From a virus, in the IMG/VR virus record IMGVR_UViG_3300035670_001286, positions 1 through 23,119 of that record: a DNA stretch of 23,119 nt; one strand, given 5' to 3'. Shown here in pieces: positions 2,008 to 22,879 of this stretch; within the stretch, counting starts at the first letter, position 1, and the number at the start of each line of letters is the position of its first letter. The notes under the pieces were generated by a model. The model saw nothing but the letters and a program-made list of their open reading frames with translations, was not told where the DNA came from and made no database searches. Position numbers and translations under genes: made by a program.

Positions 2008-3387
2008 ATGAATCTTCTCAAGGCATTTAGAACTAAGGAGCTAGGCTTACCGCAGGCGTTGCAATGGCAGTACATAAAGGGGGTTTGGATGCCTTACGAT
2101 GCAAAGGACAGCGTATTTATAGACAAGGCGTATAAGAGTATCCCTGTAGTACAGTCTGTAGTTTCTAAGATTGTAGAGAAGAGTGCGGATGCTCCTCCGA
2201 TGTTGTATAAGGTTAAGGACAAGAGATTTGCAGAGAAGTACTTTGCAAAGAAAAAGTATATTAGCAATAAGGAAAGTGCTACTGAGTTAGCTAAGTTGCG
2301 AGTAAAGGCGTTTGAGTCGATTGAGCAGCATCCGTTCTTAGAGTTGATGGACAGACCGAACCCGACTAGTACGGGTAGAATGTTGAGAGAAGAGGTTGCA
2401 GGATACTTGTTGATTACAGGAAATGCGATTGTGTATGCAAGTGTTCCTGGTGTTGGGACTAGAGCGAAGCAGCCTGTAGAGTTGTGGAGTGTGCCGAGTC
2501 CTACTGTGAAGCCTGTGATGTCAGGAGAAAGAACACAGCCATTGGCAGGATATGCGATAACATATAACTTTGATAATATTATCCCTACAAGTCAGGTAGC
2601 ACATTTCAAGTACTTCAACCCTGTTTCTGAGTGGCAAGGATACGAGAGTACGTTCTGGGGGTTAAGTCCGTTGAGAAGTAGCTTGAACGTAATTTCTCAG
2701 AAGAGGTTTGCAGATGTTGCTCAGGGTTCGTTGTTTGCGAACATGGGTCCTAGTGGTATTGTGAGCGGTAACGCTAGACACGCAGATCAGTCTGAGTTAA
2801 CTGCCGAGCAGGCTGTAGCCATTAACGATTCGTTTAGACAGAACCACATGGGTGCTCATAATGCTGGAGACATTGTTGTGACTCCTAGTGACCTGAAGTG
2901 GGTGCAGATAGGCTTAAGTCCTGTGGACATGGGTATATTGGACTTTAATCAGGACTTGGAGAGACAGATTGCTAATATCTACGGATATCCGTCTCAGTTG
3001 TTGACTCCGCAGGGAACATTGGCGAATAGTGAGACAGGTGACACTCGAGTGGTGACTAACTGCGTATTGCCATTGTTGAGAAAGATGGATGATGTGTGGA
3101 CTAAGATGGCTCGAGAGTGGTATGGAGATAACACCTTGGTAGTAATGTCTGACACGGATGTATATCCTGAATTGGAAGCTGACAAGAAGGAATTGGTACA
3201 TTGGATGCGTCAGGCGATGGTATTCAGTCAGGATGAGATTAGAGAAGCTCTAGGATATGGAACGTTAGTAGATGAGAGTAAGGTGTTGGTTCCTACTAAC
3301 TATATGCCGTTGAGTGATATGCGTGGTGGGGATTTAAATACTGAAATAAACACGGATGAAGACCAAGATATTGACCAAGAACTTTGA
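2008..3387 (+). CDS. Portal protein, HK97 type
   Basis: A 459-aa protein predicted to form the dodecameric ring at the capsid vertex through which DNA enters and leaves, and to dock the terminase. Recognisable features are the N-terminal segment around FIDKAYKSIPVVQSVVSKI, the middle block PFLELMDRPNPTSTGRMLRE followed by LLITGNAIVYAS, and the late block ERQIANIYGYPSQLLTPQG followed by SETGDTRVVTNCVLPLLRKM. These are typical of the HK97-family portals (Phage_portal). The length is normal for the family. Position between the large terminase and the protease-capsid pair agrees. The acidic C-terminus (EINTDEDQDIDQEL) overlaps the next gene by 32 bases. Confidence 0.93.
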   Translation: MNLLKAFRTKELGLPQALQWQYIKGVWMPYDAKDSVFIDKAYKSIPVVQSVVSKIVEKSADAPPMLYKVKDKRFAEKYFAKKKYISNKESATELAKLRVKAFESIEQHPFLELMDRPNPTSTGRMLREEVAGYLLITGNAIVYASVPGVGTRAKQPVELWSVPSPTVKPVMSGERTQPLAGYAITYNFDNIIPTSQVAHFKYFNPVSEWQGYESTFWGLSPLRSSLNVISQKRFADVAQGSLFANMGPSGIVSGNARHADQSELTAEQAVAINDSFRQNHMGAHNAGDIVVTPSDLKWVQIGLSPVDMGILDFNQDLERQIANIYGYPSQLLTPQGTLANSETGDTRVVTNCVLPLLRKMDDVWTKMAREWYGDNTLVVMSDTDVYPELEADKKELVHWMRQAMVFSQDEIREALGYGTLVDESKVLVPTNYMPLSDMRGGDLNTEINTDEDQDIDQEL

Positions 3388-3544
3388 TCCTCTGAATGGC
3401 AAGATAACAGTTAAGGCACAGCGATTAAGTGATGAGTACACCTGCTGGTGTATGGCCAAGGACTACACGTTTGAATTTGAAGAAGGATTAGGTAAAAAAG
3501 AAATAATCGAGCAGACTATTAAGCTGCTATCAGTAATGCCATGA
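3356..3544 (+). CDS. Small protein of unknown function overlapping portal
   Basis: A 62-aa protein whose ATG lies inside the last 32 bases of the portal gene and whose TGA overlaps the ATG of the methyltransferase (ATGA). It is rich in Lys and Glu, with a Cys-Trp-Cys at residues 30-32 (TCWCMAKDYTFEFEEG). The C-terminus (KKEIIEQTIKLLSV) is predicted helical. No membrane segment or known motif is visible. The double overlap suggests coupled translation with its neighbours. It may belong functionally to the enzyme cassette that follows, but that is a guess. Confidence 0.6.
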   Translation: MKTKILTKNFDPLNGKITVKAQRLSDEYTCWCMAKDYTFEFEEGLGKKEIIEQTIKLLSVMP

Positions 3545-4074
3545 CAATAACAGAACAAGAGTTTCTACGAAAAGAAGTCGAGGATATGAACCTAACAATG
3601 AGAAATAAGGCATTTGTAAACTTGGCTAAGAGTGTGGCTAATTATTGCAAGAAGTTTGATGCTAAGAGTGTAATTGACTACGGATGTGGTACAGGGGTAT
3701 ATTCTGAGGTGTTTAGACAGGAAGGATACAATGTAATGGCTCAGGATATTTTTAAGACTCACAGAGATTACTGCAAGGAGAAATACCCTGAGTTAAATGT
3801 AATTCTAAGACTAAAGCCTGCTGAGTTGATGTTGTTCATCGAGGTTGCTGAACACATGACTGACGAAGAGATATTGACTGGAATTGAGCAGATACAGCCA
3901 CGATTGATAGTATTTAGTTCTACTTCTCATAAAACAGAGAATGATGAGGAATGGGGACATATCAACATCAAGCAAGAGCCTGAGTGGATTGAGTTCTGGG
4001 ATACCTTGGGATACAAGGTTATAGAAAGACCACAAACACCAACAGGATGGACTCTGATGTTAGAAAAAATCTAA
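3541..4074 (+). CDS. Class I SAM-dependent methyltransferase
   Basis: A 177-aa Rossmann-fold methyltransferase. Motif I is DYGCGTG (residues 46-52), the SAM-binding glycine loop. The acidic residue after strand 2 is probably D69 in NVMAQDI, and EVAEHMTDEE (101-110) matches the post-strand-4 motif of Methyltransf_11/23 enzymes. A His-Ile-Asn stretch follows (EWGHINIKQEPEWIEFW). There is no DPPY-type motif, so it is unlikely to be a DNA N6-adenine or N4-cytosine methylase. Relatives act on small molecules, lipids or sugars. The next two genes are glycosyltransferase-like and overlap this one, so a sugar or glycan substrate is plausible but not shown. Confidence 0.85.
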   Translation: MTITEQEFLRKEVEDMNLTMRNKAFVNLAKSVANYCKKFDAKSVIDYGCGTGVYSEVFRQEGYNVMAQDIFKTHRDYCKEKYPELNVILRLKPAELMLFIEVAEHMTDEEILTGIEQIQPRLIVFSSTSHKTENDEEWGHINIKQEPEWIEFWDTLGYKVIERPQTPTGWTLMLEKI

Positions 4075-4694
4075 TCTACTTTATTTATTACAATGGTAAG
4101 TTACATCACTACCATGTGTTGAACTTAAAGCTATTGTCAATGTTTTGGTCTGTGTTTGACGGACAGAAAATTGTCAAGATAGCCGTAGATGGTAACTATT
4201 CTATTGACGCTTTGTTGAGCTTGCTGCCAAAAGACTGCGAGTATAGGATTGTCAAGAATATCAAGGAAACAGGAGAGGCATATCATTTCTTAGAGTCGTT
4301 GGTAGAGATAAAAGAAGGCATGACGTTCTATGGTCATTGCAAAGGTGTTACACGACCAATGTGGCGTGGATTAGACACATGGATTACTCACTTGTATAGA
4401 AAGAACTTAGATATAGTACCTACTCTTGGCGATAAGATATTTGCAGGAGTATGCGGTAAGTTATTGCGTTGTCCTCCGTATGTACCTGAAGAGTTTCACT
4501 ATAGTGGTTCGTTCTATTGGATGAATACGGACAAGGTAAAAAAGAGGCTAGGTAAGATTGTAATGGACAAGTACTTGACTGAGAGGTTTCCTGCAATAAT
4601 AGCTAATAAGGAAGAGTGCATCTTTGGATTTGGCACAACTGATAAGAACTTAAATTTCTATGATGAGAGAACATGGAGGGAATTAAGAAGGTAG
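4047..4694 (+). CDS. Glycosyltransferase-like protein
   Basis: A 215-aa protein. It opens with a short beta-helix pattern (NLIYFIYYNG), followed by KIVKIAVDGN, and carries a GHCKG at residues 96-100 followed by VTRPMWRGLDTWITHLYRKN. A His-x-Lys-Gly before an aromatic-rich helix recalls small polysaccharide-synthesis glycosyltransferases (rhamnan-synthesis-F-like and related GT-A-like families). A later FHYSGSFYWMNTDKV block fits a sugar-nucleotide enzyme core. The N-terminus overlaps the methyltransferase by 28 bases and the C-terminus overlaps the next glycosyltransferase by 22. No signal peptide or membrane span is seen, so it should be cytoplasmic. The family is assigned from motif appearance only. 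Confidence 0.55.
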   Translation: MDSDVRKNLIYFIYYNGKLHHYHVLNLKLLSMFWSVFDGQKIVKIAVDGNYSIDALLSLLPKDCEYRIVKNIKETGEAYHFLESLVEIKEGMTFYGHCKGVTRPMWRGLDTWITHLYRKNLDIVPTLGDKIFAGVCGKLLRCPPYVPEEFHYSGSFYWMNTDKVKKRLGKIVMDKYLTERFPAIIANKEECIFGFGTTDKNLNFYDERTWRELRR

Positions 4695-5863
4695 TATATA
4701 GTGTAATTCTAGGAGGATATGATGAGCTAAGTCCTGCTCCTAAGTTTAAGGGGTGGGACTTTGTCGTGTTTACAGACGATGCGGACTTGAAGGCTGATGG
4801 ATGGACTAAATACCTTGTAGATGGTACTAGTGATACACAGAAGGAATCTAGGAAGTATAAGTTCTTATCTCATGTGTATCTAAGTGAATACGATTTAGTA
4901 TGCTATGTAGATGGAAATGTTCAGTTGACATCTGAGCCACCTAGTCATCCGATATGGTTTAGCCATAGAATGCATACAGGGGTGTATAATAACGCAATGA
5001 CCATTACTAAGAATGTAGATGATGTCAAGAGGCAAGTTAGGTTCTACATGGAAAGTAGGTTTAACGACAAGGCAGGATTCTACGAGAACAATTTCTTTGT
5101 GCGGTCGAACAGAAACGAATTGCAGAACAAGTTGATGAGCAAGACTTGGGAGATAATACAAGAATATACAAGTTTAGACAAGTTAGCACTTCCGTTTGCA
5201 ATGTGGTTAACGCAGAGTAGGATGGAGAATATAAAGCATCAGTCCTTGCAGAGTAGGTATATTAAAGTAAAGCCACATAAGAAGCAGTTAGAGGAGAAGA
5301 GAAGTGTAAATGTTCATCACATCACTCCTGGTAGATCAGACAAGAACATAGGTAAGGCAATAAACGAAATAATCGAAAGGCTACCTGAGAACGATTGGAT
5401 TTGTCTTAGGGACATAGATACCTTGCCGATGTATCACGAGAAGATTTATCAGCAATGTGAGGAGATTGCTAGGGCAGCAGAGTTTGACTTGGTGGGATGC
5501 ATGACTAATAGGTTAGGATTGCACTATCAGCTAGTAGGAGGAAGGAAGAGCAATGATTCTGATATCTTAAACCACAGAAAGATTGCTGTGGAGTTGTACA
5601 ACACGCATGGCAATCAAGTGATGGCATTGCAGCAAGCGATTGGTGGGTTGTTTATGCTGTTTCCTAAGAGTACCTGGCTAAAGGTTAAGGGATTCCCTGA
5701 AGGAGGAATACAGATAAATGGACATTTCTTTGACTACCACTTCTGCAAGAGTGTAATGCAGCAAAGGTTACGCATTGGTATCGCTAAAGGTATATACTTA
5801 TTTCACTACTACAGGTTTGAGCATGGAGAGGATACAAGGAAAGCAATTAGACATCTTCTATGA
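4673..5863 (+). CDS. Two-domain glycosyltransferase
   Basis: A 396-aa protein that appears to join two sugar-transfer domains. The N-terminal half (about 5-200) opens with VVYSVILGGYDELSPAP, contains FVVFTDD and has a metal-site-like CYVDGNVQL (77-85), resembling the TOD1/DUF616 type. The C-terminal half (about 210-396) looks like a GT-A (GT2-like) fold: VNVHHITPGRSDKNIGKAIN leads to ENDWICLRDIDTLPM with the likely DxD at D247-D249, then GGLFMLFPKSTWLKVKGF, and ends with a histidine in GIYLFHYYRFEHG. It is cytoplasmic by sequence. Possible targets are virion proteins, host surface glycans or DNA bases; the capsid context makes virion decoration attractive but unproven. The gene ends 36 bases before the protease. 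Confidence 0.75.
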   Translation: MEGIKKVVYSVILGGYDELSPAPKFKGWDFVVFTDDADLKADGWTKYLVDGTSDTQKESRKYKFLSHVYLSEYDLVCYVDGNVQLTSEPPSHPIWFSHRMHTGVYNNAMTITKNVDDVKRQVRFYMESRFNDKAGFYENNFFVRSNRNELQNKLMSKTWEIIQEYTSLDKLALPFAMWLTQSRMENIKHQSLQSRYIKVKPHKKQLEEKRSVNVHHITPGRSDKNIGKAINEIIERLPENDWICLRDIDTLPMYHEKIYQQCEEIARAAEFDLVGCMTNRLGLHYQLVGGRKSNDSDILNHRKIAVELYNTHGNQVMALQQAIGGLFMLFPKSTWLKVKGFPEGGIQINGHFFDYHFCKSVMQQRLRIGIAKGIYLFHYYRFEHGEDTRKAIRHLL

Positions 5864-5864
5864 G

Positions 5865-5896
5865 TTTGTTAGTTTAATAGTTTTTTTCAATCTTTG
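5865..5896 (+). promoter_or_regulatory. Promoter TTTG-N20-AATCTTTG before the protease-capsid genes
   Basis: TTTG (5865-5868), a 20-base spacer and AATCTTTG (5889-5896; 7 of 8 to TAnnTTTG) precede the protease ATG at 5900 by only three bases. Transcription from it would start at or next to the ATG, giving a leaderless message. Its position supports separate high expression of the protease and major capsid protein. Confidence 0.55.
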
Positions 5897-5899
5897 TGT

Positions 5900-6952
5900 A
5901 TGGAATTAATTAGCATAAAAAACCCTGACAGCTATTCAGACTATCCTGAAGCTGTAAGAAACAATGCGAAAAGAGTTCTAAAGTATGTTGAAGAGAATGG
6001 TTGGGGACCATGTGGAACTGATGTAGGAAAGCAGAGAGCCAGCCAACTAGCTAACGGAGAAGCCATTAGCGTAGATACAATTAAGAGAATGTACAGCTAT
6101 CTAAGTAGACACTCAGTAGACTTAGAGTCTTCTACTTCTTACGAAGATGGCTGTGGACTTTTAATGTACGATGCATGGGGAGGTAAGGCTGCACTAACGT
6201 GGAGCAGGAGTAAACTTAGAGAATTAGGAGAAATTAAAGAACAGAGCGTAGGAATGATAACTAAAGGATTAAACCAAGGATTTCAGGATGCAGACATGAA
6301 GCAAGGAATTGTTTCAGGTTACTTTGCAATGTTCGGAAATAAAGATTTGGATGGTGATGTAATCGAGAAAGGTGCATTCACTAAGACAATCATGGAGCGT
6401 GGTCCACAAGGAAAGAAGTTAATTAAGTACTTGCTAGACCACGATTCTCAAAAGTCAGTAGCTCTAATTACTAACCTAGAGGAAGATATGAAGGGACTAA
6501 GATATGAGGCTAAGATTGGTACTCATGCTCTTGGTGTTGACTTTATGAAGATGGTAGAGTCAGGGCTTATTAACCAGCACAGCTTTGGATTCTCTGTGCC
6601 AAAGGACAAGCAGTTCTATGACCAAGGCAGAAAGGCCAATGTTATTAAGGAAGTAATTATGTATGAAGGATCAGCAGTACAATTTCTAGGAGCTAATCCT
6701 GATACCACATATATAGACCTAAAGTCAGAGTCAGATGCATTTGAGTACTTAGAAAGACTTGAGAAGTTTGTAAGAACTTCAGATGCTACAGATGAAACTT
6801 TAGCAAAACTAGAAGAAAGACTAAAATCACTTTATGATTCTATGAAGCCAGCACCTGCTACTTCAGAGGAAGATGAAGCCGAAATAGACGCACAATTAAT
6901 TATCGAATCACTTAAATCTACATTTAGAAATCATGGCAGAATTGCAAATTAA
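5900..6952 (+). CDS. Prohead maturation protease with extra N-terminal domain
   Basis: A 350-aa protein. Residues about 125-260 match HK97-type (U35) prohead proteases: KDLDGDVIEKGAFTKTI, the catalytic-histidine region KYLLDHDS (H181), GLRYEAKI and the serine region GLINQHSFGF (S228). It should cleave the N-terminal scaffold of the capsid protein inside the prohead. Residues 1-110 are an additional helical domain with GKQRASQLANGEAISVDTIK, RMYSYLSRHSVDL and CGLLMYDAWGG, a motif set I associate with Bacteroidota phage head proteins but cannot name. The C-terminal tail is acidic and helical (APATSEEDEAEIDAQL), as in self-packaging proteases. The start is set at ATG 5900; a TTG at 5894 lies inside the promoter box. 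It overlaps the capsid gene by 20 bases. Confidence 0.87.
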   Translation: MELISIKNPDSYSDYPEAVRNNAKRVLKYVEENGWGPCGTDVGKQRASQLANGEAISVDTIKRMYSYLSRHSVDLESSTSYEDGCGLLMYDAWGGKAALTWSRSKLRELGEIKEQSVGMITKGLNQGFQDADMKQGIVSGYFAMFGNKDLDGDVIEKGAFTKTIMERGPQGKKLIKYLLDHDSQKSVALITNLEEDMKGLRYEAKIGTHALGVDFMKMVESGLINQHSFGFSVPKDKQFYDQGRKANVIKEVIMYEGSAVQFLGANPDTTYIDLKSESDAFEYLERLEKFVRTSDATDETLAKLEERLKSLYDSMKPAPATSEEDEAEIDAQLIIESLKSTFRNHGRIAN

Positions 6953-8093
6953 AGAGGTTCAGGAGTTCCTATCTGAGGAGCTACAGACCCTAAAGAAAAA
7001 CTTCTCTACTGAAAGAGAAAAAGACGTTGCAGGATTTGACGCAAAAGTTAAGGACGCAATGGACAAGTTGTCTGCTGATATGCAGGCGAAGCACGCTGAC
7101 CTCCAGAAGGAAATGGATTTGGCATTGGCTCATGCAAATGAGAAAGCAGCTCAGAAGACTGAGCGTAAGAACTTCGGATGGTCTCTACATGAGACTTTGA
7201 AGGCTAACCACGCTGATATGGTTAAGAATGTGAAGTCTGGTAAGGGAATGGAAATGACCATGAAGGATTTCAACTATTCTGACTTCACAGGTTATGAGCC
7301 TTTCGTAACTGATTTCCGTGATCCAATCTTGGTAAAGTATGAGTCTTTCCACTACAGAAACGTACTTCCTGGAGGAACTATGTCAGGTGAATTTGTTAAG
7401 TATCCAAAGGAGAACGCTACTGTAGGTGGTGCTAACACTTGGGCATACGGAGATGGTTCTAAGCCTGAAATCGAGCCTAAGATGACTACTTACCAGGCTG
7501 ATGCCGAGTGGATTGCAGGTCTTATCAAGGGAGTTCCAATCTCTATGATTGAGGATTTGGCTTGGATGACTTCATTCTTGCAGAACAAAGGTCGTGCTGA
7601 ATTGTTGAAGAAGGAAGATAATTATATCCAAGGTTTGCTTCTTGACGCTGCTAACTCTGAGGACTACGATGGTTCTAAGACTATCAGCATCGAAATCTTG
7701 ATTGATGCTGCATTGCGTCAGTTGAAGAACAACCTTCACACTCCAACTGGAATCGTGTTGAGCAACCAAGATTATGTAAACATCTTGTTGGGTAAAGCTG
7801 CTGGTTCTGGTGAGTATGACTTCCCAGGTGTTGTGACTGTTAACCCTGTAACAGGTCAGTTGAACGTAGTAGGTATTCCTGTATTCTCTAACTCTTACCT
7901 ATCTCAAGGAACTGGTATCGTTGGTGATTGGAATCAGGCTCAGTTGTTGACTCGTCAGGCTCCTCGTATCAGATTCTTCGATCAGAACTCTGACGATGCT
8001 GAGAAGAACGTAATCCTAGTTCGTGTTGAAGAGAGAGTTGCTCTTCCTGTGTTCTATGATGATGCCTTCATCAAGGTAACTTTGGCTTCCTAA
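6933..8093 (+). CDS. Major capsid protein, HK97 fold
   Basis: A 386-aa protein predicted to form the icosahedral shell. Residues 1-77 are charged and strongly helical (coiled-coil pattern, LSEELQTLKKNFSTEREKD and following), corresponding to the scaffolding delta domain removed by the protease. The mature part probably begins near residue 75-80 (ERKNFGWSLHE). The remainder shows the pattern of the Phage_capsid family: DPILVKYESFHYRNVLPGG, EWIAGLIKGVPISMIEDL, GIVLSNQDYVNILLGKAAG, PVTGQLNVVGIPVFSN, and the end block VEERVALPVFYDDAFIKV. The gene follows the protease with a 20-base overlap and ends just before a strong terminator, which fits a highly expressed unit. Confidence 0.93.
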   Translation: MAELQIKEVQEFLSEELQTLKKNFSTEREKDVAGFDAKVKDAMDKLSADMQAKHADLQKEMDLALAHANEKAAQKTERKNFGWSLHETLKANHADMVKNVKSGKGMEMTMKDFNYSDFTGYEPFVTDFRDPILVKYESFHYRNVLPGGTMSGEFVKYPKENATVGGANTWAYGDGSKPEIEPKMTTYQADAEWIAGLIKGVPISMIEDLAWMTSFLQNKGRAELLKKEDNYIQGLLLDAANSEDYDGSKTISIEILIDAALRQLKNNLHTPTGIVLSNQDYVNILLGKAAGSGEYDFPGVVTVNPVTGQLNVVGIPVFSNSYLSQGTGIVGDWNQAQLLTRQAPRIRFFDQNSDDAEKNVILVRVEERVALPVFYDDAFIKVTLAS

Positions 8094-8118
8094 TTAGGAA
8101 TCAATAGTTTGAATTAAG

Positions 8119-8147
8119 AGCCTTGGATTTTTCCAAGGCTTTTTTAT
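8119..8147 (+). terminator. Intrinsic terminator after the capsid gene
   Basis: AGCCTTGG (8119-8126) and CCAAGGCT (8133-8140) form a perfect 8-bp stem with a six-base loop, followed by TTTTTATT. It is 26 bases after the capsid stop and closes the head transcription unit. Confidence 0.9.
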
Positions 8148-10912: not shown

Positions 10913-10933
10913 AAATAATAATTGACTACGACT

Positions 10934-11368
10934 ATGGCTAACGAATTATTTAGTAAAGATATTGGTGTCTATGTAGACGTATCCGCTACTGCAACACCTG
11001 ATTGGAAATTGGCGGTTTGTACTTCTTCTAAGTCGCTTTCCATCTCTGTTGGTGCAACAGAAATCAACAATGACTGTACAGGTGACTTTGTAAGAAACCT
11101 TCCATCAACTGCTTCTTGGACTATGTCCTTTGAAGGTGATGTGAATACTGACCCAGGAGCATCTGAGGTTTCTGCTGCTGACATCTTCGGTTACACCGTT
11201 GCTCGTGCTGAAAAGAAATTTAAGTTTGAGTCACTTGACGAGACTTATGTAAGATATGGCGAAGGTTTTATCTCCCAATTTGACGAGACTGCAACTGCAC
11301 CTGAGTATCAGACGTTCTCTGTATCCATTACTGGTTCAGGACCTATCTCTGATGTAGAGCCAACCTAA
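10934..11368 (+). CDS. Major tail tube protein
   Basis: A 144-aa beta-rich protein that should polymerise into the tail tube. The opening MANELFSKDIGVYVDV is followed by WKLAVCTSSKSLSISVGATE, DCTGDFVRNLPSTASWTM and FEGDVNTDPGASE, the pattern of TP901-1-like major tail proteins. The C-terminus has FISQFDETATAPEYQTFSVS and ITGSGPI, matching the typical end of tube proteins. It has its own promoter and is closed by a terminator 33 bases after the stop, so it is a single-gene unit. The start is set at ATG 10934; a TTG 12 bases earlier is less likely. Confidence 0.85.
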   Translation: MANELFSKDIGVYVDVSATATPDWKLAVCTSSKSLSISVGATEINNDCTGDFVRNLPSTASWTMSFEGDVNTDPGASEVSAADIFGYTVARAEKKFKFESLDETYVRYGEGFISQFDETATAPEYQTFSVSITGSGPISDVEPT

Positions 11369-21485: not shown

Positions 21486-21624
21486 AAGTAATCGAATCCG
21501 CTTGGGAATCTGGGCGGCTTTTTTAATTGTGGTAGGCGGAGTGGCTGCATTCTTCTTACCTGAGCATTCTGTAGGTTCATTCTTTGACCTACTTAAAACT
21601 ATTGTCACCAGCCTACTCCTATAA
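21469..21624 (+). CDS. 51-aa membrane protein with GTG start
   Basis: A GTG at 21469, inside the end of the basic peptide gene, opens a 51-codon frame: (M)DKDVRSNRIRLGIW, then a transmembrane segment about 12-30 (LGIWAAFLIVVGGVAAFFL), a short PEHSVG turn and a second, more amphipathic hydrophobic helix (SFFDLLKTIVTSLLL, 37-51). It ends at a TAA overlapping the ATG of the phosphoesterase (TAATG). No in-frame ATG exists upstream before a stop. The charged N-terminus and hydrophobic C-terminus suit a holin or spanin-like lysis accessory. Confidence 0.6.
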   Translation: MDKDVRSNRIRLGIWAAFLIVVGGVAAFFLPEHSVGSFFDLLKTIVTSLLL

Positions 21625-22505
21625 TGGAAGTAACTAAAATAGCACGAAATGTGCATACTATTTCCTTGAATAAAGAGGAAAACAAAGTAGCCTTACTTAG
21701 CGACATACATTGGGACAATCCTAAGTGTGACAGGGTAATGCTAAAAAGACACCTTGACTATTGCCTTGAGAATAAGATACCAGTATTCATAAATGGGGAT
21801 ATGTACTGCCTCATGCAGGGTCGTGGTGATCGGAGAGGAAACAAGTCAGACATTCTTCCTGAACACAACAATTCAAAGTACCTAGATTCTATTGTGGAAA
21901 CGGCTGTGGAATGGTGGTCACCTTATGCATCTATATTGACTGTGATAGGCTACGGCAATCATGAGACTGCAATTATTAAGTACCAAGAGACTGACATTTT
22001 GCAAAGATTTGTTGACTTAATGAACTACAAGAATAAGAGCAACATTTACACAGGTGGTTATGGTGGATGGATGGTGCTTAAATATGAATTGAGGCAAAGC
22101 ACTACCATGACCAAGAACCTGAAGTACTTTCACGGATCAGGTGGAGGAGGGATAGTCACCAAGGGTGCAATCAATTTGACTAGGGCCTTGGAGACTTATG
22201 AGAATATGGATGTCTTTGTGATGGGCCACATACATGAGAACGCAAGCAGAAATGATGTCAGGGACTGCCTCCACTATAATCAAGGAAAGAGAAGCTATGA
22301 ACTACAGCAGAAGCAGATCCACCTTGCGATAACTGGATCGTATAAGGAAGAGTACGGAGACGGATCACATGGGTGGCACGTTGAACGAGGCGCACCTGTA
22401 AAGCCTGTAGGAGGTAGAATACTTACCTTAAACGGAAGGAGATATTTGCATGAAGGTTCTGAGATTCATGAATTATTAATTGATAGTTGTAAATTTCCGC
22501 TATGA
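21624..22505 (+). CDS. Calcineurin-like metallophosphoesterase
   Basis: A 293-aa enzyme with the complete set of metal-binding motifs: SDIHWD (26-31; D27, H29), NGD (57-59), GNHE (111-114), H170 in KYFHGSGGGG and GHIHE (201-205). Two divalent metals should be held and a phosphate ester or phosphodiester hydrolysed. The substrate is not evident; DNA, cyclic or linear nucleotides, or lipid-linked sugars are possible. There is no signal peptide, so action is cytoplasmic. It lies between small membrane proteins and the M15 peptidase and overlaps both. A phosphoesterase at this place is not a standard lysis component and may be a moron. Confidence 0.88.
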   Translation: MEVTKIARNVHTISLNKEENKVALLSDIHWDNPKCDRVMLKRHLDYCLENKIPVFINGDMYCLMQGRGDRRGNKSDILPEHNNSKYLDSIVETAVEWWSPYASILTVIGYGNHETAIIKYQETDILQRFVDLMNYKNKSNIYTGGYGGWMVLKYELRQSTTMTKNLKYFHGSGGGGIVTKGAINLTRALETYENMDVFVMGHIHENASRNDVRDCLHYNQGKRSYELQQKQIHLAITGSYKEEYGDGSHGWHVERGAPVKPVGGRILTLNGRRYLHEGSEIHELLIDSCKFPL

Positions 22506-22879
22506 AACTTTCTACTAATTTTGCTTTATCTGAGTTTGCCTCTGCTGATGGTAAGGCACCATCTGAGCAGGTTCTCAAGAACCTTACTGAATTAGCTAAG
22601 AATTTAGAGGTATTGCGTTCACACCTGAAGTTGCCTATTAGGGTAACTAGTGGCTTTAGGTCTAAGGAACATAATGCTAAGATTGGTGGTGCTTTAAATA
22701 GCTTTCATGTGCTTGGCATGGCTGCTGACATTCAGGTAAAGGGACTAACTCCTGTGCAGGTTGCTCATGCTATAGAGTTGTTGATTAAGGAAGGCAAGAT
22801 GAAAGAAGGTGGTTTAGGAATCTATAGGACATGGACGCACTATGATTGCAGAAATACTAAAGCTAGATGGGAAAAATGA
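22502..22879 (+). CDS. M15-family peptidase, endolysin
   Basis: A 125-aa zinc peptidase expected to cut peptidoglycan cross-links for host lysis. It has RVTSGFRSKEHNAKIGGA (47-64) leading to NSFHVLGMAADIQV, giving zinc ligands H69 and D76, and the third histidine H113 in WTHYDC. This is the M15A pattern (Peptidase_M15_3; D-Ala-D-Ala carboxypeptidase or endopeptidase). There is no signal peptide, so it needs a holin, for which the small membrane proteins upstream are candidates. Length is typical of compact phage endolysins lacking a wall-binding domain. It overlaps the phosphoesterase by 4 bases. Confidence 0.9.
   Translation: MKLSTNFALSEFASADGKAPSEQVLKNLTELAKNLEVLRSHLKLPIRVTSGFRSKEHNAKIGGALNSFHVLGMAADIQVKGLTPVQVAHAIELLIKEGKMKEGGLGIYRTWTHYDCRNTKARWEK

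Follow-up and report, generated by a model that had tools for sequence, protein, structure and literature searches.

We consider it probable that a block of overlapping genes in the head module of an uncultivated phage is a virion-glycosylation cassette, whose enzymes would build a methylated sugar on a particle protein. In relatives of this phage, one glycosyltransferase domain of the cassette was constant, and the genes ahead of it had been exchanged repeatedly at gene edges. Two aspects of the work are new: the protein family that we call GTm and the swapping of the genes that would build the glycan, upstream of a glycosyltransferase that stays the same. The stretch of DNA that was analyzed (here, the window) was a 23,119-base IMG/VR virus record. 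Its head and tail genes were like those of Bacteroidota phages, and the best relatives of its portal protein were found in Cellulophaga phages.

Gene order and boundaries of the cassette

The cassette genes, their boundary genes, the promoter, the hairpin, and the two candidate acceptor genes described here were on the forward strand. The 5' boundary of the cassette was a portal gene (positions 2008 to 3387; PF04860, 3e-45), and the 3' boundary was an S78 prohead protease gene (5900 to 6952; PF04586, 5e-21) that probably starts at the ATG at 5900. A first-pass annotation of the window had placed three enzyme genes between these boundaries, and all three open reading frames were present: MT, a class I SAM methyltransferase (3541 to 4074); GTm, a 215-aa protein with a predicted GT-A-like fold (4047 to 4694); and GTc, a glycosyltransferase. 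GTc was divided into GTcN, an N-terminal glycosyltransferase-like domain (4673 to 5311; PHROG 26101), and GTcC, a C-terminal glycosyltransferase domain (5312 to 5863; PHROG 14179, 3e-43). The overlaps were also as annotated, with 28 bases shared by MT and GTm and 22 bases shared by GTm and GTc. The count of three genes stood for the enzymes, but a fourth gene (3356 to 3544) had been overlooked. This gene, which lies between the portal gene and MT, encodes a 62-aa protein that matched no family in Pfam, PHROG, or NCBIfam. The protein was 73 to 97% identical among the IMG/VR relatives of the window (clade 1), and its dN/dS was 0.02 to 0.06.

A separate promoter for the protease and capsid genes had been proposed at position 5865. 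A scan with the promoter consensus yielded 50 matches against 50 expected, which was no excess, and the promoter was accepted because of its conservation in relatives rather than the consensus count. Specifically, the probable Bacteroidota-type promoter TTTG-N20-AATCTTTG (5865 to 5896) was nearly invariant in 20 relatives, and the coding sequence just downstream diverged. Both promoter boxes were kept in 19 of the 20; the upstream TTTG was altered in L018. From the portal gene to the end of GTc, there was no convincing terminator, and the sole forward hit, at 4729, was inside GTc. A terminator-like hairpin with a 12-pair stem and a T tract (8116 to 8143) was located 3' of the major capsid gene (6933 to 8093; HK97-type, PF05065, 9e-12). 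The capsid protein is a candidate acceptor for the glycan, and a second candidate is the product of a major tail (tube) protein-like gene (10922 to 11368), whose role was inferred from gene order. Clade-1 copies of the tail-tube-like gene matched the tail protein mtp2 of a second group of phages, clade 2, at about 41%. Near the end of the window (21624 to 22879), a metallophosphoesterase gene (PF00149, 3e-5) was followed by a gene for an M15-like peptidase, recognized by eye, in what is presumed to be the lysis region.

Predicted enzymes of the cassette

MT matched Methyltransf_23 (PF13489) at 2e-7, which exceeded the Pfam cut-off and agreed with the earlier assignment of a SAM methyltransferase. 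The only other Pfam match above the cut-off was Methyltransf_11 (PF08241, 8e-5). The substrate of MT is probably a sugar, which would make MT a sugar O-methyltransferase. A sequence-profile search of the PDB with MT returned weak matches to generic methyltransferases, and a search of GenBank phages found no MT homologs. When a defense-system role of the block was considered, the search returned generic methyltransferase matches only, and this candidate was set aside.

MT homologs were also found beyond these phages. In L091 (338 to 4077), an MT homolog (39%) preceded a glycosyltransferase of PHROG 7162 and, at a greater distance, a protein that looked TET-associated-glycosyltransferase-like by eye. 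L092, L094, L095, L097, and L098, from phages of another group, carried distant MT homologs (29 to 32%). In L092 and L094, both of which were examined, the homolog was about 1.2 to 1.3 kb from a divergent GT4-like protein and outside the head module.

The methyltransferase sequences bear on the idea of DNA hypermodification, in which the glycosyltransferases would decorate phage bases and MT would be a DNA methyltransferase. Phage glycosyltransferases are known to be capable of this, and a Helsingorvirus neighbor and PHROG 27561 are both labeled as DNA methyltransferases. However, motif IV of DNA amino-methyltransferases, [DNS]PP[YFW], was found in 0 of 29 aligned MT homologs, and MT had no match to the C5 DNA methyltransferase family PF00145 above the Pfam cut-off. 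Moreover, thymidylate-synthase/hydroxymethylase (PF00303) and TAGT (PF20691) genes were missing from 14 related records, which were 30 to 37 kb long and possibly incomplete. A relative encoded a separate, ordinary C5 DNA methylase among its early genes, and the cassette itself was with the late head genes, not the replication genes. We therefore regard DNA hypermodification as highly improbable.

GTm matched no family in Pfam, PHROG, or NCBIfam. Structure prediction, which the first-pass annotation had recommended, produced a good AlphaFold2 model (pLDDT 86.3, pTM 0.86), and Foldseek matched this model to IspD, KdsB, GtrB, ArnC, and LgtC (E values of 6e-5 to 1e-3, probability 1.0). The best fold matches (TM of about 0.4 to 0.47) were nucleotidyltransferases as well as glycosyltransferases, and the predicted structure matches a nucleotide-sugar-transferase (GT-A-like, Rossmann-like) fold. 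The stretches HCKG, located after the central strand, and FHYSGSFYW were invariant, and the alignment of homologs contained no invariant DxD. Because no DxD accompanied the invariant motifs, we refer to GTm as a protein of the glycosyltransferase fold with putative enzymatic activity; it may be metal-independent or atypical. The description of the middle protein as glycosyltransferase-like thus held for the broad nucleotide-sugar fold of the model, but a clear DxD was missing. GTm homologs were found in IMG/VR phages only, with none in GTDB genomes or GenBank phages. GTm appears to be a new family, with no match in the named collections beyond these uncultivated phages.

The call of a two-domain glycosyltransferase for GTc gained family-level support. 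GTc matched the PHROG "glycosyltransferase" family 26101 at 6e-58 over residues 3 to 396, and its C-terminal half matched PHROG 14179 at 2.5e-43 over residues 214 to 396. PF04765 (TOD1_MUCI70) did not match GTc of the window, and it did match GTcN of a Sphingobacterium prophage homolog (1e-7; 31.8 bits versus a cut-off of 21.4). By this route, GTcN may be TOD1/MUCI70-like. GTcC had invariant residues in a homolog alignment (A5) and carried DxD motifs (RDIDT/QDGD). The structure model of GTc was weak (pLDDT 65), and its best matches, two-GT-domain polymerases and GT6 enzymes, may be read as consistent with two GT-A domains from a model too poor to lean on. Sequence-profile searches of the PDB with GTm, GTc, and GTcC returned nothing useful.

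None of MT, GTm, and GTc contained a hydrophobic segment at the membrane-helix level. This result is relevant to a second role that had been proposed for the block, namely that it alters LPS, capsule, or S-layer glycans of the host late in infection and thereby excludes superinfecting phage or keeps progeny off debris. Such modification is a common role of phage glycosyltransferases, it was proposed for gp41 of phi18:1 (PMC11946311), and cassette exchange of the kind described below would fit an arms race over surface glycans. However, the three proteins had no transmembrane segment, and a membrane anchor, a flippase, and a partner of the Gtr type were all absent; in the case of Gtr serotype conversion (a membrane glycosyltransferase with GtrA/GtrB), no such neighbors were present among the listed genes of the window and its relatives. 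The cassette was also tied to the head module in several lineages, some of them lytic, and late expression would be badly timed for exclusion. We consider host-surface modification unlikely. Of the two roles offered in the first-pass annotation, a methylated sugar on a particle protein and alteration of host surface glycans, the relatives favored the first over the second.

Conservation and selection in clade 1

The 62-aa gene, MT, GTm, and GTc were present in all 30 distinct portal-to-protease intervals of clade 1, which was the comparison with related phages that had been suggested as a check. Of 69 distinct junctions, 68 had the identical 28-base overlap of MT and GTm, even where protein identity fell to about 56%; the exception was L166, in which an extra open reading frame was inserted between the two genes. 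These counts indicated that the arrangement was not due to chance.

The cassette genes were under purifying selection, with dN/dS values of 0.03 to 0.28. In most comparisons, GTcN was the fastest-changing part of the cassette and GTcC was the most constant. Relative to L006, the synonymous divergence of MT (0.87) and GTm (0.94) was about twice that of the terminase, portal, GTcC, and protease genes (0.43 to 0.47). This difference points to a recombinational exchange of MT and GTm in clade 1 during which GTcC stayed in place.

Related cassettes in other phages and prophages

Clade 2 had a portal protein only 27% identical to that of the window group and a different capsid protein. Its MT-GTm pair and a free-standing GTcC were flanked by the major capsid gene on one side and the first connector gene on the other. 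Contig L166 carried MT and GTm in the interval from terminase to portal. In Helsingorvirus genomes, the portal and protease genes enclosed a methyltransferase of the Methyltransf_24 type and a full-length homolog of GTc. Two prophages of Bacteroidota had similar arrangements. The Chitinophaga eiseniae prophage had the order portal, methyltransferase, GT, small open reading frame, and GTcC, with the S78 protease and capsid genes later, and the Sphingobacterium sp. SGG-5 prophage had the order portal, methyltransferase, and GTcN-GTcC, with the capsid gene later. The methyltransferases of the Helsingorvirus, Chitinophaga, and Sphingobacterium cassettes differed from MT of the window.

The earlier statement that most HK97-type phages have nothing between the portal and protease genes was fair, but an occupied slot was not unique to the phage of the window. 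The slot was used likewise in Cellulophaga Helsingorvirus phages, Bacteroidota prophages, and cluster O mycobacteriophages.

Exchange of genes upstream of GTcC in clade 2

GTcC was kept in all 66 clade-2 loci with a complete slot, and the slot was never empty; some of these loci overlapped within a single contig, and 66 distinct capsid sequences went into the tree described below. Three types of cassette were observed. Type A had the MT-GTm pair ahead of GTcC. Type B had two GT2-type proteins (about 460 and 230 aa) ahead of GTcC, in some cases together with a Methyltransf_24 enzyme. Type C had another Methyltransf_24 enzyme and a GTcN domain fused to GTcC. All of the variants consisted of sugar enzymes, and the methyltransferase was usually first.

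On the capsid-gene tree, there were at least nine changes of type, compared to a minimum of 2 and to 23 with shuffled labels. As far as the methyltransferase start, L081 (type A) and L234 (type C) shared 97.5% identity, after which their types differed. L088 (type A) and L173 (type B) were 89% identical until about 10 bases 5' of the methyltransferase start, and identity resumed, at 79.5%, near the GTcC start. Exchange breakpoints were therefore sharp at gene edges, namely the MT start and the GTcC start, and the segment ahead of GTcC has repeatedly been swapped for non-homologous sets of methyltransferases and glycosyltransferases.

We also considered whether the block might be moron-like cargo, that is, sugar enzymes that occupy a permissive gap and act, for example, on host cytoplasmic metabolites or proteins rather than on the virion. 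In favor of this idea, the slot tolerates the exchange of unrelated genes. However, it was never empty in the 66 complete clade-2 slots and 30 clade-1 intervals, it had like content each time at three positions that were all in the head module, and the genes were under strong purifying selection. These findings make a cargo role very unlikely.

The exchange is compatible with a more specific form of virion glycosylation, to which we assign an even chance: a glycotype-switching locus, in which GTcC would prime the virion and the rest of the glycan enzymes would be swapped as a unit by gene-edge recombination. If so, relatives with 97% identical flanks would wear chemically different sugar coats, and the locus would parallel, in phages, the O-antigen switching of bacteria. 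That exchange has recurred upstream of an enzyme that stays the same suggests diversifying selection on the glycan itself.

The metagenome contigs G010 (37,113 bases) and G011 (36,190 bases), with loci L265 to L268, L181, L212, and L214, broke at the cassette at both ends. Each contig end carried capsid sequence, and the two ends of G010 differed in their cassette version; assembly of G010 and G011 seemed to fail at the variable locus. In L067 (9240 to 9480) and equivalent positions, the clade-2 slot began with a conserved Cys-rich open reading frame of about 58 aa, located after a strong capsid terminator. Similar small Cys-rich proteins were also present among the early genes (L262, 13564 to 13758; L266, 4560 to 4766). 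Another early gene of L262 (9393 to 10196) encoded a 267-aa protein that looked PAPS-reductase/adenine-nucleotide hydrolase-like by eye and had no Pfam match at 0.01.

Proposed function and comparison with known systems

Phage virion glycosylation is documented mainly in actinobacteriophages, in which it alters antibody recognition. The sugar-enzyme content of the variants, the precedent of the cluster O mycobacteriophages, and that of the chlorovirus enzyme A064R together favor virion glycosylation for the block studied here. For the window phage, we infer the enzymatic activities, the sugar identity, the acceptor protein, and the benefit of the cassette as follows. The cassette would be transcribed together with the late head genes, and its soluble cytoplasmic glycosyltransferases would draw on host nucleotide sugars and assemble a short glycan during particle making. 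The acceptor would be a virion protein, with the major capsid protein and the tail tube as the most likely choices. MT would cap a sugar of this glycan. The constancy of GTcC points to a role in forming the linkage that is common to all variants, and the exchangeable parts (GTm, GTcN, and the methyltransferase) would determine its outer portion in the glycan of each variant. Shared C-terminal Ser/Thr residues of capsid or tail proteins were tried as acceptor sites and rejected, as the signal was too weak. Several points run counter to this reading, among them the missing DxD motif of GTm and the poor GTc model. A location in the late operon would also suit late modification of other targets, and the GTcC homologs of Justusliebigvirus are away from the head genes.

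Modification of capsid and tail-tube proteins in cluster O was reportedly described by Freeman et al. in 2023, a result relayed in PMC11600133, PMC11256854, and PMC12619734. In these phages, an O-methyltransferase gene and three glycosyltransferase genes are located between the portal and maturation protease genes (PMC4351075), and a passage of PMC11600133 describes their products as modifying capsid and tail-tube proteins. This slot was occupied by the O-methyltransferase and three glycosyltransferase genes in Firecracker, Catdawg, and Dylan. The window resembled cluster O (Corndogvirus) in the slot used, in a methyltransferase gene followed by overlapping glycosyltransferase genes, in head gene order, and in being a siphovirus; as in the actinobacteriophage type, the structural operon held several glycosyltransferase genes and a methyltransferase gene. 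In contrast to the window, cluster O has actinobacterial hosts and an O-methyltransferase of the TylF/Methyltransf_24 type rather than the Methyltransf_23 type. We know of no cassette exchange in cluster O mycobacteriophages. The cluster O enzymes had no meaningful blastp or hhalign match to the window enzymes, so sharing of the slot would be convergent or at least independent, and on current evidence the two blocks appear to be analogous rather than homologous. Unrelated enzymes in the same slot in phages of another phylum suggest that a methylated-sugar coating of virions arose more than once.

A further precedent is A064R of chlorovirus PBCV-1. In this system, the capsid glycan is made by cytoplasmic glycosyltransferases of the virus and capped by its methyltransferase, and it has a conserved core and a virus-specific outer part (PMC7019647). 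PBCV-1 differs from the window phage in being an unrelated, eukaryotic virus, in the fusion of the enzymes in one protein, and in its proven biochemistry.

Homologs of GTcC were also found in a glycosyltransferase gene cluster of Justusliebigvirus/Phapecoctavirus. As in clade 2, the homolog (about 42%) was free-standing and beside other glycosyltransferases. However, these phages are 146-kb myoviruses in which the homolog was outside the head module and near replication genes, including DNA polymerase/primase genes in Justusliebigvirus, and no adjacent methyltransferase was recognized in the annotation.

The Helsingorvirus phages phi12:1, phi17:1, and phi18:1, which carry a gp39-gp40-type pair, had a GTc homolog with 32 to 33% identity over 99%. 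Their interval differed from that of the window in the presence of a MuF gene, the absence of GTm, and a Methyltransf_24-type enzyme that is annotated as a DNA methyltransferase in the records. In the case of phi18:1, DNA, LPS, and protein were all left as possible targets, and the structural-module methyltransferase was treated as a DNA enzyme (PMC11946311). Our comparison favors protein among these three and thus offers a concrete reading of the target question for this Cellulophaga phage. It also suggests that "DNA methyltransferase" labels in structural modules may be wrong. One gene with this label was Phi12:1_gp39 (L001, 6546 to 7013), whose family and surroundings are suggestive of a methyltransferase that acts on sugar or protein.
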